Of a DNA stretch of 64,000 nucleotides, positions 21,379 to 25,773 are shown in pieces. Position 1 is the stretch's first letter; every line of letters begins with the position of its first letter. The translations under genes and the position numbers were made by a program. Source of the stretch: Mesobacillus jeotgali (GTDB lineage Bacteria; Bacillota; Bacilli; Bacillales; Cytobacillaceae); contig NZ_FVZC01000009.1 in the NCBI RefSeq assembly GCF_900166585.1, forward strand, positions 1,375,444-1,439,443. Reading direction: 5' to 3'. Under the pieces are notes generated by a model, which was given only the letters and a program-made list of their open reading frames with translations, had not been told where the DNA came from and searched no databases.

Positions 21379-22920
21379 GTGAGCAAGCTGAGTGTAATTA
21401 TTCCATTAATTTTAATTTCCTGTGGCTTATCTGTGTTTTCAAATCTCATAAGATTCTATGTAAGCGCTTCTTTAAACCGGCTTATACTGTCTTTCGCCAC
21501 TTTAGTGCTGGTTGAAGTTTCGGCAATTTTTTTTGGAACAGATGAATTAGTATGGCTTACTCTTTTTTTTATTGGCTTCACTGGTTACTCATTTCAAATA
21601 TTGGGCGGGGTTACTGCAGCCCTGCTGAGCACTGCTCTTGTTTTCTGGCAAGCCGACATTTCTCCAATCCTGGCTTCCCCTGTTTACCTTGCACTGGGTG
21701 TTGGAGCCGGTTATGTTTCACGCTTCATCATAAATAATAAGAGAAATCATCACCTATGGATGAATATGCTTATGAACCAATCGAAGCATTTACAAGTGTT
21801 CCGTGAAGTAAGCACAATCATGCAGCGCACTCTCCAGCAGGATATGCTATTAAAAGTGATCCTGACTTCTGTTACTGCTGGACATGGTCTTGGTTTTAAC
21901 AGGGCAATGATTTTCCTGTCCTCCAATGAATCTCAATCCTTAAAAGGAATAGTAGGTGTTGGCCCAATTGATGTTAAAAGAGGCTACGAAGTCTGGGAGA
22001 AAATTTCAGAAGATAAATTAAAGCTGCGTGATTTGATTGAACATAATTTTGACAGCAATTTTACAGATCCTGAATTGAATGGAATACTCCGATCATTGGA
22101 CATTCCGCTTGATGGCCATAATGTCTTTAGCTTAGCTTTATCGAATCAACAGCCGGTGATAATAAAGGAGATTGATGAATCGGATTCCTCTCAGGTACTT
22201 ATTAATAGGCTATTTCAAACCGAGGAATTTGCTGTCATACCCCTGATCAATCAAGGGAAGAACATTGGAATCCTCCTTATAGACAATATTGTCAACAAAA
22301 GGCCTATTACGTTAATGGATACAGAGAATATCCTGCCGCTTGCAAACCAGGCGGCCATAGCGCTTGATCATGCTAACCTGTATCAGCAGATAGAGGAAAT
22401 GGCCTTAAGAGATGGATTGACAGGACTTTTAAATCAGCGGGCATTTCAAACAATACTCGATGACCATTTCCCATTTAATTTTGGAAATCAAGGTCCGCTG
22501 TCCCTTATCATTTTAGATATAGATTATTTTAAAATCTTTAATGATAAAAACGGACACCTGCTGGGAAATGAGGTATTGATAAAGTTCGCTGGAGTAATTG
22601 ACCATTCTTTAAGACCAGGTGATTTCTCTTTCAGGTTTGGCGGTGAAGAGTTTGTAGTGCTTTTACCTGATTCTTCCCTTCAACATGCAGAAATCCTGGC
22701 AGAGGCAATCAGGAAAAATGTTGAACAAGCCAGTTTTCCCGGAGAGGAAACGCAACCTGACGGAACTTTGACAGTAAGCATCGGGACTGCATGCACTGAT
22801 CACCCTTCTATCAACAGTAAAAATGAACTTATTGAGGCTGCAGATCAGGCCCTTTATAAAGCTAAAAACTCAGGGAAAAATACAGTAGTTTCTTTTAAGG
22901 AGTTTGTAAGAATTGATTGA
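21379..22920 (+). CDS. Membrane-bound GAF-GGDEF diguanylate cyclase
   Basis: Up to 513 aa. Residues 1-120 form four or five membrane helices; a GAF domain follows (about 140-330), then a GGDEF domain. The active site is GGEEF at residues 421-425. An RxxD inhibitory site (RPGD, 412-415) sits exactly five residues before it, so product inhibition is expected. It makes cyclic di-GMP. The start is uncertain: GTG at 21379 overlaps the AGGAG site, and a CTG three codons later is better spaced. The last 8 bases overlap the next gene. Confidence 0.9.
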   Translation: MSKLSVIIPLILISCGLSVFSNLIRFYVSASLNRLILSFATLVLVEVSAIFFGTDELVWLTLFFIGFTGYSFQILGGVTAALLSTALVFWQADISPILASPVYLALGVGAGYVSRFIINNKRNHHLWMNMLMNQSKHLQVFREVSTIMQRTLQQDMLLKVILTSVTAGHGLGFNRAMIFLSSNESQSLKGIVGVGPIDVKRGYEVWEKISEDKLKLRDLIEHNFDSNFTDPELNGILRSLDIPLDGHNVFSLALSNQQPVIIKEIDESDSSQVLINRLFQTEEFAVIPLINQGKNIGILLIDNIVNKRPITLMDTENILPLANQAAIALDHANLYQQIEEMALRDGLTGLLNQRAFQTILDDHFPFNFGNQGPLSLIILDIDYFKIFNDKNGHLLGNEVLIKFAGVIDHSLRPGDFSFRFGGEEFVVLLPDSSLQHAEILAEAIRKNVEQASFPGEETQPDGTLTVSIGTACTDHPSINSKNELIEAADQALYKAKNSGKNTVVSFKEFVRID

Positions 22921-24356: not shown

Positions 24357-24443
24357 ATCACTGCTCTCACCTACGCTAACTTCATTGTTTATTCATCTTA
24401 AGATTGACATTCAAGAAGAGTAATATACCAGGCGGATTTAAAA

Positions 24444-24470
24444 AAAGCCCACGCTGATTTGGGCTTCTTT
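24444..24470 (-). terminator. Terminator of the HTH/F1-beta gene
   Basis: GAAGCCC/GGGCTTT stem with a 10-base loop, followed by TTTTTTT on the minus strand, 11 bases after the stop codon. Confidence 0.8.
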
Positions 24471-24481
24471 TGCAGTAGTTA

Positions 24482-25531
24482 TCATAAATCAATCTTGCCA
24501 ATAAAATTCAGGTCTTCCGCATTATAAATACTTGAAGGTTCCTCAAGTATTTTTTTTACATCACTTAAAGTATCTTTTAAACTTACACTCACACCTTTTT
24601 TCCCTGTATAAGGCTCAGCTACGTAAAAAGGCTGAGTCAAATACGCCTCAAGCTTCTCTCCCTGCTCGTAAACCTGCAGTTCGGAGGCCGGGAGCCGGCC
24701 GAGACCGTGCACTGTTACAATCGAACGTAATTCCCGGTAGCGGCGAAGGAGCTTTTGTGCTTTTTGCTGTATACTGTGGTGTACAGGGTCTAAATATGAT
24801 CCTTCCAGGATGGAAGATGTTGAGTAGATTGGGTTAACCGCAGGATATTTGTGTCTGGCCGCCAGGTCGGCATCAAATTGCCATAATGTATCAAGTGGAC
24901 CATATGGAAGGTTATCATCAACCGCCTCTCCTTTAAGATCAAGCAGGAATGTCGTTATTTCTGTCATTCCCTTTCCATCCAGCATTTCAAGAAGCGTGAA
25001 CATTTCTCCTGTTAAAACATAGGAACGATCCGCTGTAAGTACGAAATGTTTGGCCTTGCCAGCAGATTCCATCATTTTATAGACTTCATCTATATTCTCC
25101 GCAACAAAATCTACGTTATCAAGAATATCGTCAATTTCAGGATGATTACCTTTTGGTTTTATAAGGATATTTATATAGCCATCATTTTTCAACCTGTGCA
25201 GCATCTCAGCTAATACCACTAATTGGCCCATGCCTGGACGCGCTACCAAACCCACTGTCCCTCCTTTAGCGATTGGAGCAAATAAATCTAACGTTTTGAT
25301 ACCAGTCTCAATCATCTCCACACTCTCCCCTCTTAAAATCAATTCATCAAGACTGCAGCCTGCAAGTTCAGCGAGTGCCACTATCGTCCGTACCTCTGCT
25401 CTGCCAACGGGAATTTTTCCCGTAGTAAGATTTGAAACAGTAGCGGGTCGGAGGCCAACAGATTTTGCTGCAGTCGTAAGGTTTGGAACACGCTTTCTCA
25501 ATAAACCGACATTCAATCTGATTTTTTCCAA
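24482..25531 (-). CDS. HTH regulator fused to degenerate F1-ATPase beta-subunit-like domain
   Basis: TTG start at 25531, 8 bases after AAGGAGG. 349 aa. Residues 3-68 are an XRE-like helix-turn-helix (LTTAAKSVGLRPATVSNL). From residue 75 to the end it parallels the F1 beta subunit: ETGIKTLDLFAPIAKGG, KYPAVNPIYSTS, LLRRYRELRSIV, QPFYVAEPYTG, LKDTL, and a last FIGKIDL like the beta FRLVGRIEE. The N-terminal beta barrel is replaced by the HTH, the P-loop reads RPGMGQL (no Lys-Thr), the GER and AGSEVSALL catalytic segments are missing and DELSEED is lost. It therefore probably senses rather than hydrolyses. Monocistronic. Function unknown. Confidence 0.85.
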   Translation of the reverse strand: MEKIRLNVGLLRKRVPNLTTAAKSVGLRPATVSNLTTGKIPVGRAEVRTIVALAELAGCSLDELILRGESVEMIETGIKTLDLFAPIAKGGTVGLVARPGMGQLVVLAEMLHRLKNDGYINILIKPKGNHPEIDDILDNVDFVAENIDEVYKMMESAGKAKHFVLTADRSYVLTGEMFTLLEMLDGKGMTEITTFLLDLKGEAVDDNLPYGPLDTLWQFDADLAARHKYPAVNPIYSTSSILEGSYLDPVHHSIQQKAQKLLRRYRELRSIVTVHGLGRLPASELQVYEQGEKLEAYLTQPFYVAEPYTGKKGVSVSLKDTLSDVKKILEEPSSIYNAEDLNFIGKIDL

Positions 25532-25556
25532 CACTTCCACCTCCTTACTTTATAGA

Positions 25557-25570
25557 GTAAATTTATTTAC
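25557..25570. promoter_or_regulatory. Candidate operator upstream of the HTH/F1-beta gene
   Basis: GTAAAT-TT-ATTTAC palindrome 26-39 bases before the start codon, with further TTTAC-rich sequence at 25590-25615. Its place suggests autoregulation, but no binding data support this. Confidence 0.35.
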
Positions 25571-25773
25571 CTTAAAAAGCAACAACAATTTACGGTTAAA
25601 CGTATTTTATTTACTTCATATTGAATTTTTAATATTAATAACATAAAATCGACAAAAATAATTATAAAATACAGAGTTATTTTTGAGGTTTAGAAAAATG
25701 AGAATCTTAAACAGCTTTAGAAGTAGATAATTAAGGGGTTCTCCCGCAAAGGACACATGAGAACGAAAGAAAA

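Follow-up and report, generated by a model that had tools for sequence, protein, structure and literature searches.

An XRE-type helix-turn-helix protein with an F1-ATPase beta-type domain of degenerate catalytic motifs, and a conserved operator-like array at its likely promoter

Background

The Rho termination factor is a RecA/F1-type protein that acts on gene expression as an active RNA-binding hexameric helicase without a helix-turn-helix (HTH), and few proteins of any organism are as conserved as the F1 beta subunit itself. We describe here a gene from a 64,000-nucleotide stretch of Mesobacillus jeotgali DNA (the window), whose predicted product, named HTH-AtpD here, combines a Cro/C1 (XRE)-type HTH with a domain descended from F1 beta. 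Its carriers are a group of spore formers and other soil bacteria. Rho profiles match this protein weakly (E 0.12–0.13), and Rho differs from it both in the missing HTH and in being an active RNA-binding hexameric helicase.

A comparable design is that of BzdR from Azoarcus, which its abstract presents as an HTH joined to an inactive shikimate-kinase domain that became the effector domain (PMC3602430). As far as that abstract goes, the two proteins are alike in having an N-terminal DNA-binding domain and an enzyme domain which lost its activity and now acts, or in HTH-AtpD would act, as an effector; however, the donor was shikimate kinase in one and F1 beta in the other, BzdR controls benzoate degradation, and a half-site array of the HTH-AtpD kind goes unmentioned in the abstract (PMC3602430). 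No shikimate-kinase profile was found among the Pfam and NCBIfam matches of HTH-AtpD. The NrdR report describes a Zn-ribbon plus ATP-cone repressor, whose oligomeric state is under nucleotide control and which prefers binding sites in phase with the helix (PMC12051234), and by analogy we propose similar behaviour for HTH-AtpD. The domains of the two are nevertheless unrelated, and the NrdR box pair, set at ribonucleotide reductase genes (PMC12051234), differs from an array of about seven half-sites; Zn-ribbon and ATP-cone profiles were absent from the matches of HTH-AtpD and of 62 aligned members of its family.

AtpD proper (TIGR01039) has homologous nucleotide-binding and C-terminal domains, colinear with those of HTH-AtpD from the ETGIK motif to the C-terminus. 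In contrast to AtpD, HTH-AtpD carries an HTH, is devoid of the crown barrel, the Walker-A Lys/Thr, a conserved catalytic Glu and the STSR Arg, and is about 50 residues shorter between the P-loop and the adenine Tyr. The Mycoplasma F1-like ATPases MSC_0618 and MMOB1670, as reported in PMC3369863, are likewise F1 beta offshoots outside ATP synthase, but they belong to seven-gene F1-like clusters, unlike HTH-AtpD. Against their models HTH-AtpD scores 98.6 and 104.8 bits, with cut-offs of 570 and 850, respectively.

HTH-AtpD belongs neither to BzdR or NrdR nor to AtpD, and the titles and abstract openings found by searches of an open-access library for such a family yield no apparent description of it, in line with the first-pass annotation of this DNA, whose author knew of no described family with this design. 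The conversion of an enzyme into a regulator is already known from the BzdR abstract; an F1 beta donor is unprecedented in the open-access literature surveyed, and the operator is unusual. What is new in this analysis is the half-site array at the likely HTH-AtpD promoter, which tracks the gene. F1 beta turned transcription factor would make a clean case of a motor subunit becoming a sensor. The in-phase array is conserved over Bacillaceae and Paenibacillaceae, and the mechanism can be tested with one protein and 86 bp of DNA. Should the ligand be an adenine nucleotide, HTH-AtpD would let energy charge act on gene control in Bacillota by a route of which no description was found in the open-access literature searched. 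Many homologs carry the database names F-type ATPase subunit beta or ATP synthase subunit B, misleading labels that the finding corrects.

Results and discussion

The gene and its flanking signals

The reading frame of HTH-AtpD is intact. Its longest reading (352 aa) opens at a GTG at 25540, but this codon falls within the AAGGAGG ribosome-binding site, and the TTG at 25529–25531, 8 nt past that site, is therefore the likely start; the database entry for the window's own protein (P0001) also has 349 aa. The following features were read from the sequence:

24482..25531, minus strand: coding sequence of HTH-AtpD, 349 aa, TTG start, XRE-type HTH plus F1-beta-derived domain
25540..25546, minus strand: ribosome-binding site AAGGAGG, 8 nt before the TTG start
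25577..25582, minus strand: likely -35 element TTGCTT, overlapping half-site 4 of the array described below
25554..25559, minus strand: possible -10 element TACTCT, a weak match to consensus (3/6), 17 bp from the -35 and overlapping half-site 6
24440..24466, minus strand: possible intrinsic terminator AAGCCCA-N8-TGGGCTT plus T-run after the gene, read by eye

Neither the candidate -35 and -10 elements nor the candidate terminator were listed by the consensus scans for such signals. Neighbouring genes in the window include pssA and a GGDEF protein gene, with no atp operon around HTH-AtpD; the genome's own AtpD is encoded on another contig (C8). The GGDEF gene (21379–22920, plus strand) encodes a diguanylate cyclase whose N-terminal part is membrane-like. 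Elsewhere in the same genome, tandem repeats with blastn offsets in multiples of about 52 bp lie upstream of a PAP2-like gene (L057:194-1221, G000 C7).

Domain architecture and descent from F1 beta

The protein can be divided into two parts:

25328..25531, minus strand: Cro/C1 (XRE)-type HTH, residues 1–68 (HTH_26 in relatives; HTH_3 E=0.01 here)
24485..25315, minus strand: F1-beta-derived domain, about residues 73–349 (Pfam, NCBIfam, PDB, HHalign)

In Pfam the latter part matches ATP-synt_ab with 33.7 bits (cut-off 29.5) and ATP-synt_VA_C with 24.7 bits (cut-off 24.7), and both models are matched at E≤0.01 by all 62 members of alignment A1, composed of 46 of the 120 listed homologous proteins and 16 of the 48 loci found in a genome-collection search. 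The top NCBIfam model is atpD at 118 bits (E=4e-34, far below its cut-off of 463 bits), followed by three other F1-beta-type models (99–110 bits) and then by FliI (42) and V-ATPase A (41). The parallel with F1 beta drawn by the first-pass annotation is borne out by a PDB search with phmmer, in which the best solved structures, at E=1.8e-29, were chains of F1 beta, matched colinearly over 72–120 and 212–337 of the 352-aa reading, and by HHalign of A1 against AtpD (probability 99.9, E=7e-36, the AtpD side consisting of 16 of 30 fetched proteins, single strand read). In a check set beforehand, the profile searches thus placed residues 73–349 inside the F1 beta type. The HTH is weak when the window's protein is taken alone (profile E=0.01–0.1, all under cut-offs); 38 of the 62 members match HTH_26 at E≤0.01, which agrees with the XRE-like HTH reported earlier.

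A tree of 55 sequences (23 of the 62 A1 rows, 30 AtpD proteins and the AtpA and FliI of the source genome) recovered HTH-AtpD as monophyletic (UFBoot 100) and joined it to AtpD (92) rather than to AtpA or FliI. The HTH-AtpD branch is long, and the AtpD clade itself reaches a UFBoot of only 55. These results support the assignment of the domain to the AtpD lineage and its fusion to an XRE-type HTH.

Active site and adenine pocket

The positions that matter for nucleotide binding and catalysis are as follows:

25220..25243, minus strand: degenerate P-loop ARPGMGQL, residues 97–104, Walker-A Lys replaced by Gln103 (Q in 62/62)
25025..25030, minus strand: D168-R169, both invariant (62/62), D168 aligning with the Walker-B Asp of F1 beta
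24845..24847, minus strand: Y229, adenine-cage position (Y 34, F 27, W 1 of 62)
24608..24628, minus strand: residues 302–308 (F-Y-V-A-E-P-Y), holding three adenine-cage positions, conserved over the 62 members

Where F1 beta has GGAGVGKT, HTH-AtpD reads ARPGMGQL; the column following the Walker-A Lys, Thr in F1 beta, is Leu in 59 members, the column of the catalytic Glu (GER) is not conserved, and the Arg of STSR is never Arg in the 62 members. Catalysis should therefore be lost, as the description of a dead ATPase had held. The accompanying statement that the other hallmark motifs are missing stands for the catalytic Glu and fails for the Walker-B Asp (D168) and for the adenine cage. The cage positions are presumably those of bovine Y345 (here Y229), F418, A421 and F424 (within residues 302–308), and the Y-to-F spacing of 73 was checked in the source genome's own AtpD. 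Position 302 is F in 59 of 62 members and L in three, A305 is present in all 62, and position 308 is F or Y in 61. The interior is shortened: 65 residues separate the P-loop from Walker B and 61 separate Walker B from the adenine Tyr, whereas the AtpD of the source genome has 88 and 89, respectively. In or near the former phosphate site lie R98, kept in 61/62 members, and the fully conserved Q103 and R169.

An adenine-shaped pocket with new conserved residues at the former phosphate site should thus remain. Conservation of the cage strengthens the earlier idea that the protein links gene control to nucleotide state, although it could merely mirror the fact that the C-terminal part is better conserved as a whole. 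None of the results points to the proton-motive force as a sensed signal, which had been proposed alongside it. We suggest that an adenine-bearing ligand, such as an adenine nucleotide or another compound with an ADP moiety, e.g. a CoA ester, may bind in the cage and alter the oligomeric state of the protein, thereby setting the level of repression.

A half-site array over the likely promoter

Alternating AGTAA/TTACT half-sites, one per helical turn and typically seven in number, form an array at the likely HTH-AtpD promoter. In the window it is composed as follows:

25545..25616, minus strand: operator-like array of seven alternating half-sites at 10–12 bp (match of profile R1, 25541–25626)
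25611..25616, minus strand: half-site 1, AAGTAA
25602..25606, minus strand: half-site 2, AATAC
25590..25595, minus strand: half-site 3, CCGTAA
25578..25582, minus strand: half-site 4, TTGCT
25567..25572, minus strand: half-site 5, AGGTAA
25556..25560, minus strand: half-site 6, TTACT
25545..25550, minus strand: half-site 7, AAGTAA

The half-site word was chosen from the upstream DNA of the 48 loci, and the array tests were run on the same data: the 130-bp regions preceding 49 genes hold 181 half-sites, while 100 dinucleotide shuffles averaged 51 and never exceeded 68. Pair spacings peaked at 11 bp for inverted (46), 10–11 bp for everted (32) and 21–22 bp for direct pairs (44), and one ungapped 90-bp profile fitted 43/49 upstream regions, these being the sequences it was derived from. 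With a chain defined as alternating half-sites at 10–12 bp, one mismatch allowed and TTGC accepted, the longest chain comprised seven half-sites in 20/49 upstream regions. Chains of at least five occurred in 35/49 regions versus 8/980 shuffled sequences, and chains of at least seven in 23/49 versus 3/980.

At 16 bp, each TTACT-N6-AGTAA unit is an ordinary palindrome for a dimeric HTH protein, and an inverted-repeat operator near the promoter, as expected of XRE/Cro-C1 regulators, is by sequence present. The GTAAAT palindrome noted by the first-pass annotation at 25557–25570 proved real, being the everted pair of half-sites 5 and 6 within this longer conserved array; a single match of its kind is unremarkable and occurs in 36 of 100 shuffles. 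The fourth half-site is invariantly TTGC in 31 aligned arrays, whereas the sixth, in the same orientation, is mostly TTAC; this invariance fits a -35 element, with a -10 of the form TACTNT coming after 17 bp. In the main form of the array, half-sites overlap the likely -35 and -10 elements and end next to the ribosome-binding site, while Gottfriedia and near kin (L017, L019, L023–L026) have theirs of best quality upstream of the promoter. A role as an RNA leader was considered and rejected, as half-sites reach upstream of the -35 and Rfam gave no credible match (one miRNA family, E=0.08, 22 of 80 bits).

One half-site per turn places the sites on one face of the DNA, which calls for a multimer, and the overlap with the likely -35 and -10 elements, together with the end at the ribosome-binding site, makes repression of the gene's own promoter the most likely outcome. 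Starting from what was computed directly (the architecture, the loss of catalytic residues, the conserved pocket, and a conserved array that occurs together with the gene), we consider it fairly probable that HTH-AtpD is a cooperative autoregulator, probably a repressor, tuned by an adenine-bearing ligand, with the F1 part as its oligomerising body. Loss of the beta-barrel crown and of catalysis, combined with the Cro/C1 HTH, would have made a stand-alone transcription regulator, of which several protomers would sit side by side on the seven or so inverted half-sites over their own promoter; their F1 parts would hold them together and bind the ligand, and occupancy of the array would turn the promoter off.

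An activator or dual regulator, which as an oligomer bound to the array would bring RNA polymerase to its own promoter and to linked amidase/hydrolase operons, seems doubtful. The Gottfriedia-type loci, where the half-sites of best quality precede the -35, and a promoter in the window far from consensus, as activated promoters often are, speak for it, but the overlap of half-sites with both promoter elements and their end beside the ribosome-binding site in the main form do not. We also think it rather unlikely that the F1-derived body closes into a ring as in F1, be it a hexamer or a trimer of dimers, with HTH heads in place of the crown barrel and DNA along or round it, opened and closed by adenine-nucleotide occupancy as a DNA clamp that reads the energy state. 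Half-sites that alternate agree better with two-fold dimers than with the head-to-tail arrangement of an F1 ring, a point against the multimer proposed above.

Co-occurrence of array and gene

Profile R1, which describes the array by sequence only and was built from 31 of the 49 upstream regions, was used at E≤0.001 on 101 genomes from the GTDB family of the window and found the array in 33; some of these genomes may be the same strains as those used for the profile. It was present in 31/33 carriers of HTH-AtpD versus 2/68 non-carriers, and both matches in non-carriers are weak (G416, 8e-4, inside an ORF; G474, 7e-5, counted as gene-less from its absence among the matches listed). Of 44 further carriers, 39 have the array at E≤0.001. 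The seven carriers without it at this threshold include five whole genes of a divergent group (G602, G615 and G637 from the 44, G488 and G492 from the 33), in which a shorter variant of the array is visible by eye; the other two, G313 and G339 from the 44, have partial genes. When HTH-AtpD is the last gene of an operon (L016, L018, L028, L048), the array stands before the first gene, about 0.8–2 kb upstream, and it is likewise found at the operon head in L241 (weak, E=6e-4) and L142 (3e-4). The firmest link between array and protein is this tracking of the gene, with the shift to the operon head.

In the source genome the only strong array, with both strands searched and 150 of 3480 first-look candidates scored, is the one at the HTH-AtpD promoter, and the next match (E=0.02) is inside a gene. 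A triple-half-site pattern gave 18 matches, the single perfect one being at the gene's own promoter; the other 17 have one mismatch, and one of these also belongs to the own array. A backwards-pattern control, which differs in word composition, gave 77. In six genus relatives (of 14 other carriers in the genus), matches outside the own promoter had an E of 0.019 or worse. A regulator with a single strong array in its genome needs a further reason to exist, and this counts against an autoregulator. The same single array would suit an F1 part that serves as a ligand-free oligomerisation scaffold, the array giving a self-limiting set-point of expression, and so would seven in-phase sites, which imply assembly of a multimer; we nevertheless regard such a scaffold as improbable, as the pocket has several residues with no or almost no variation, beyond the apparent needs of a pure scaffold.

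Comparison of 28 secondary loci showed that ribF-rpsO (names by eye) and the pair L270/L281 recur over most of the locus; the former was rejected as a target, its match being ascribed to a strong promoter of the ordinary kind. G411 has a strong second array (L137, G411 C6:80480-80592) immediately ahead of a gene for an M3-family oligoendopeptidase (TIGR02289, 534 bits), with no HTH-AtpD gene within the 8-kb stretch, and this peptidase gene is a possible extra target. G485 has an extra intergenic array at E≤0.001 away from its HTH-AtpD gene, and G280 a second array beside a gene fragment. A weak three-half-site array lies between purD and an adenine-deaminase-like gene (names by eye) in L140/L141 (G456, G474), G474 having this site apparently without an HTH-AtpD gene.

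Neighbouring genes

Once HTH-AtpD and the ORFs antisense to it are set aside, no ORF cluster occurs in more than 15 of the 49 loci, and the largest neighbour clusters look like multigene families, e.g. kinases and response regulators. With no constant neighbour, function cannot be read from the neighbourhood. A gene of the formamidase/acetamidase family is adjoining or one gene off in 7/49 loci (L016, L018, L028, L040, L042, L046 and L048), and also in L241; the contig of L251 is the one already counted as L040. The four such amidases scanned (L016, L241, L046, L042) are all PF03069 proteins of 314–320 aa, and the three scanned with NCBIfam reach 51–61 of 500 bits against the FmdA equivalog. 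An alpha/beta hydrolase joins or replaces the amidase in L016, L241, L142 and L138 (Pfam) and, by eye, in L028 (frame split) and L243–L247. In these lineages the same operator would govern an operon with the formamidase-like amidase and/or the hydrolase.

Both links are lineage-specific. The source genome has FmdA-type genes at three places and its only strong array at the HTH-AtpD promoter. Since amidase links are few and this genome has a single strong array, the solitary, self-controlled copy is the common form. It is possible, if less probable than an adenine-bearing ligand, that the pocket was rebuilt around R98, Q103 and D168-R169 for another metabolite, for instance an amide or ester substrate of the linked hydrolases, by analogy with the reading of benzoyl-CoA by BzdR. 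The near-complete conservation of R98, Q103 and R169 and the occurrence of amidase/hydrolase operons in several genera would fit such a change; however, all four adenine-cage positions are kept and most copies have no adjoining amidase. We therefore continue to favour an adenine-bearing ligand.

Distribution, selection and broken copies

A protein search returned 857 proteins at E≤1e-3, a count that beyond the best 120 may include true AtpD; these 120 match 98–100% of the query. The 48 loci from the genome collection belong by their titles mostly to Bacillaceae, Paenibacillaceae and their kin, with one labelled Clostridium and one Chryseobacterium. The latter (L002, Chryseobacterium sp. ISL-80) has an 85%-identical HTH-AtpD amid Bacillus-type sequence; a wrong label or a mixed assembly is the probable explanation. 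HTH-AtpD was found in 19 of 398 sampled Bacilli genomes (15/145 genera), two of the 19 being partial genes (G313, G339), and in 62/193 genomes of the window's GTDB family, G442, G554 and G586 among them. Homologs are thus not restricted to one strain with frameshifts, a result that would have spoken against the first reading of this gene.

For the HTH part, dN was 0.04–0.05 and dS 0.75–0.95 in comparison with L001 and L002, and for the F1 part 0.10–0.11 and 1.55–1.71, respectively; dS was mostly saturated in six more distant pairs. Both domains are under purifying selection. A functionless remnant, either a fusion in decay or a piece of AtpD with the wrong annotation, could be invoked for the patchy distribution and the broken or split copies in G442, G554, G586 and L048, yet purifying selection, invariant residues foreign to F1 and the conserved operator array make it very improbable.

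Two further readings were set aside. As to phage cargo, all 19 matches in phage records are below 60% identity and none begins before query residue 57, the four annotated ones being named ATP synthase beta and taken as host DNA; a defence system was dropped with no PADLOC match for HTH-AtpD. Among 72,556 plasmid records one carries a copy, an 897-kb Paenibacillus cellulositrophicus megaplasmid (L284), whose homolog (55% identity) is annotated as a hypothetical protein. Broken copies were seen in G554 (C1:1136287-1136772) and G442 (C1:161943-162842), the latter with a whole copy elsewhere and an array beside each, and a split copy in G586 (C1:2655246-2656285). In L048 (2644-3524), a draft contig, the frame is divided over two ORFs, either by a real break or by a sequencing error.
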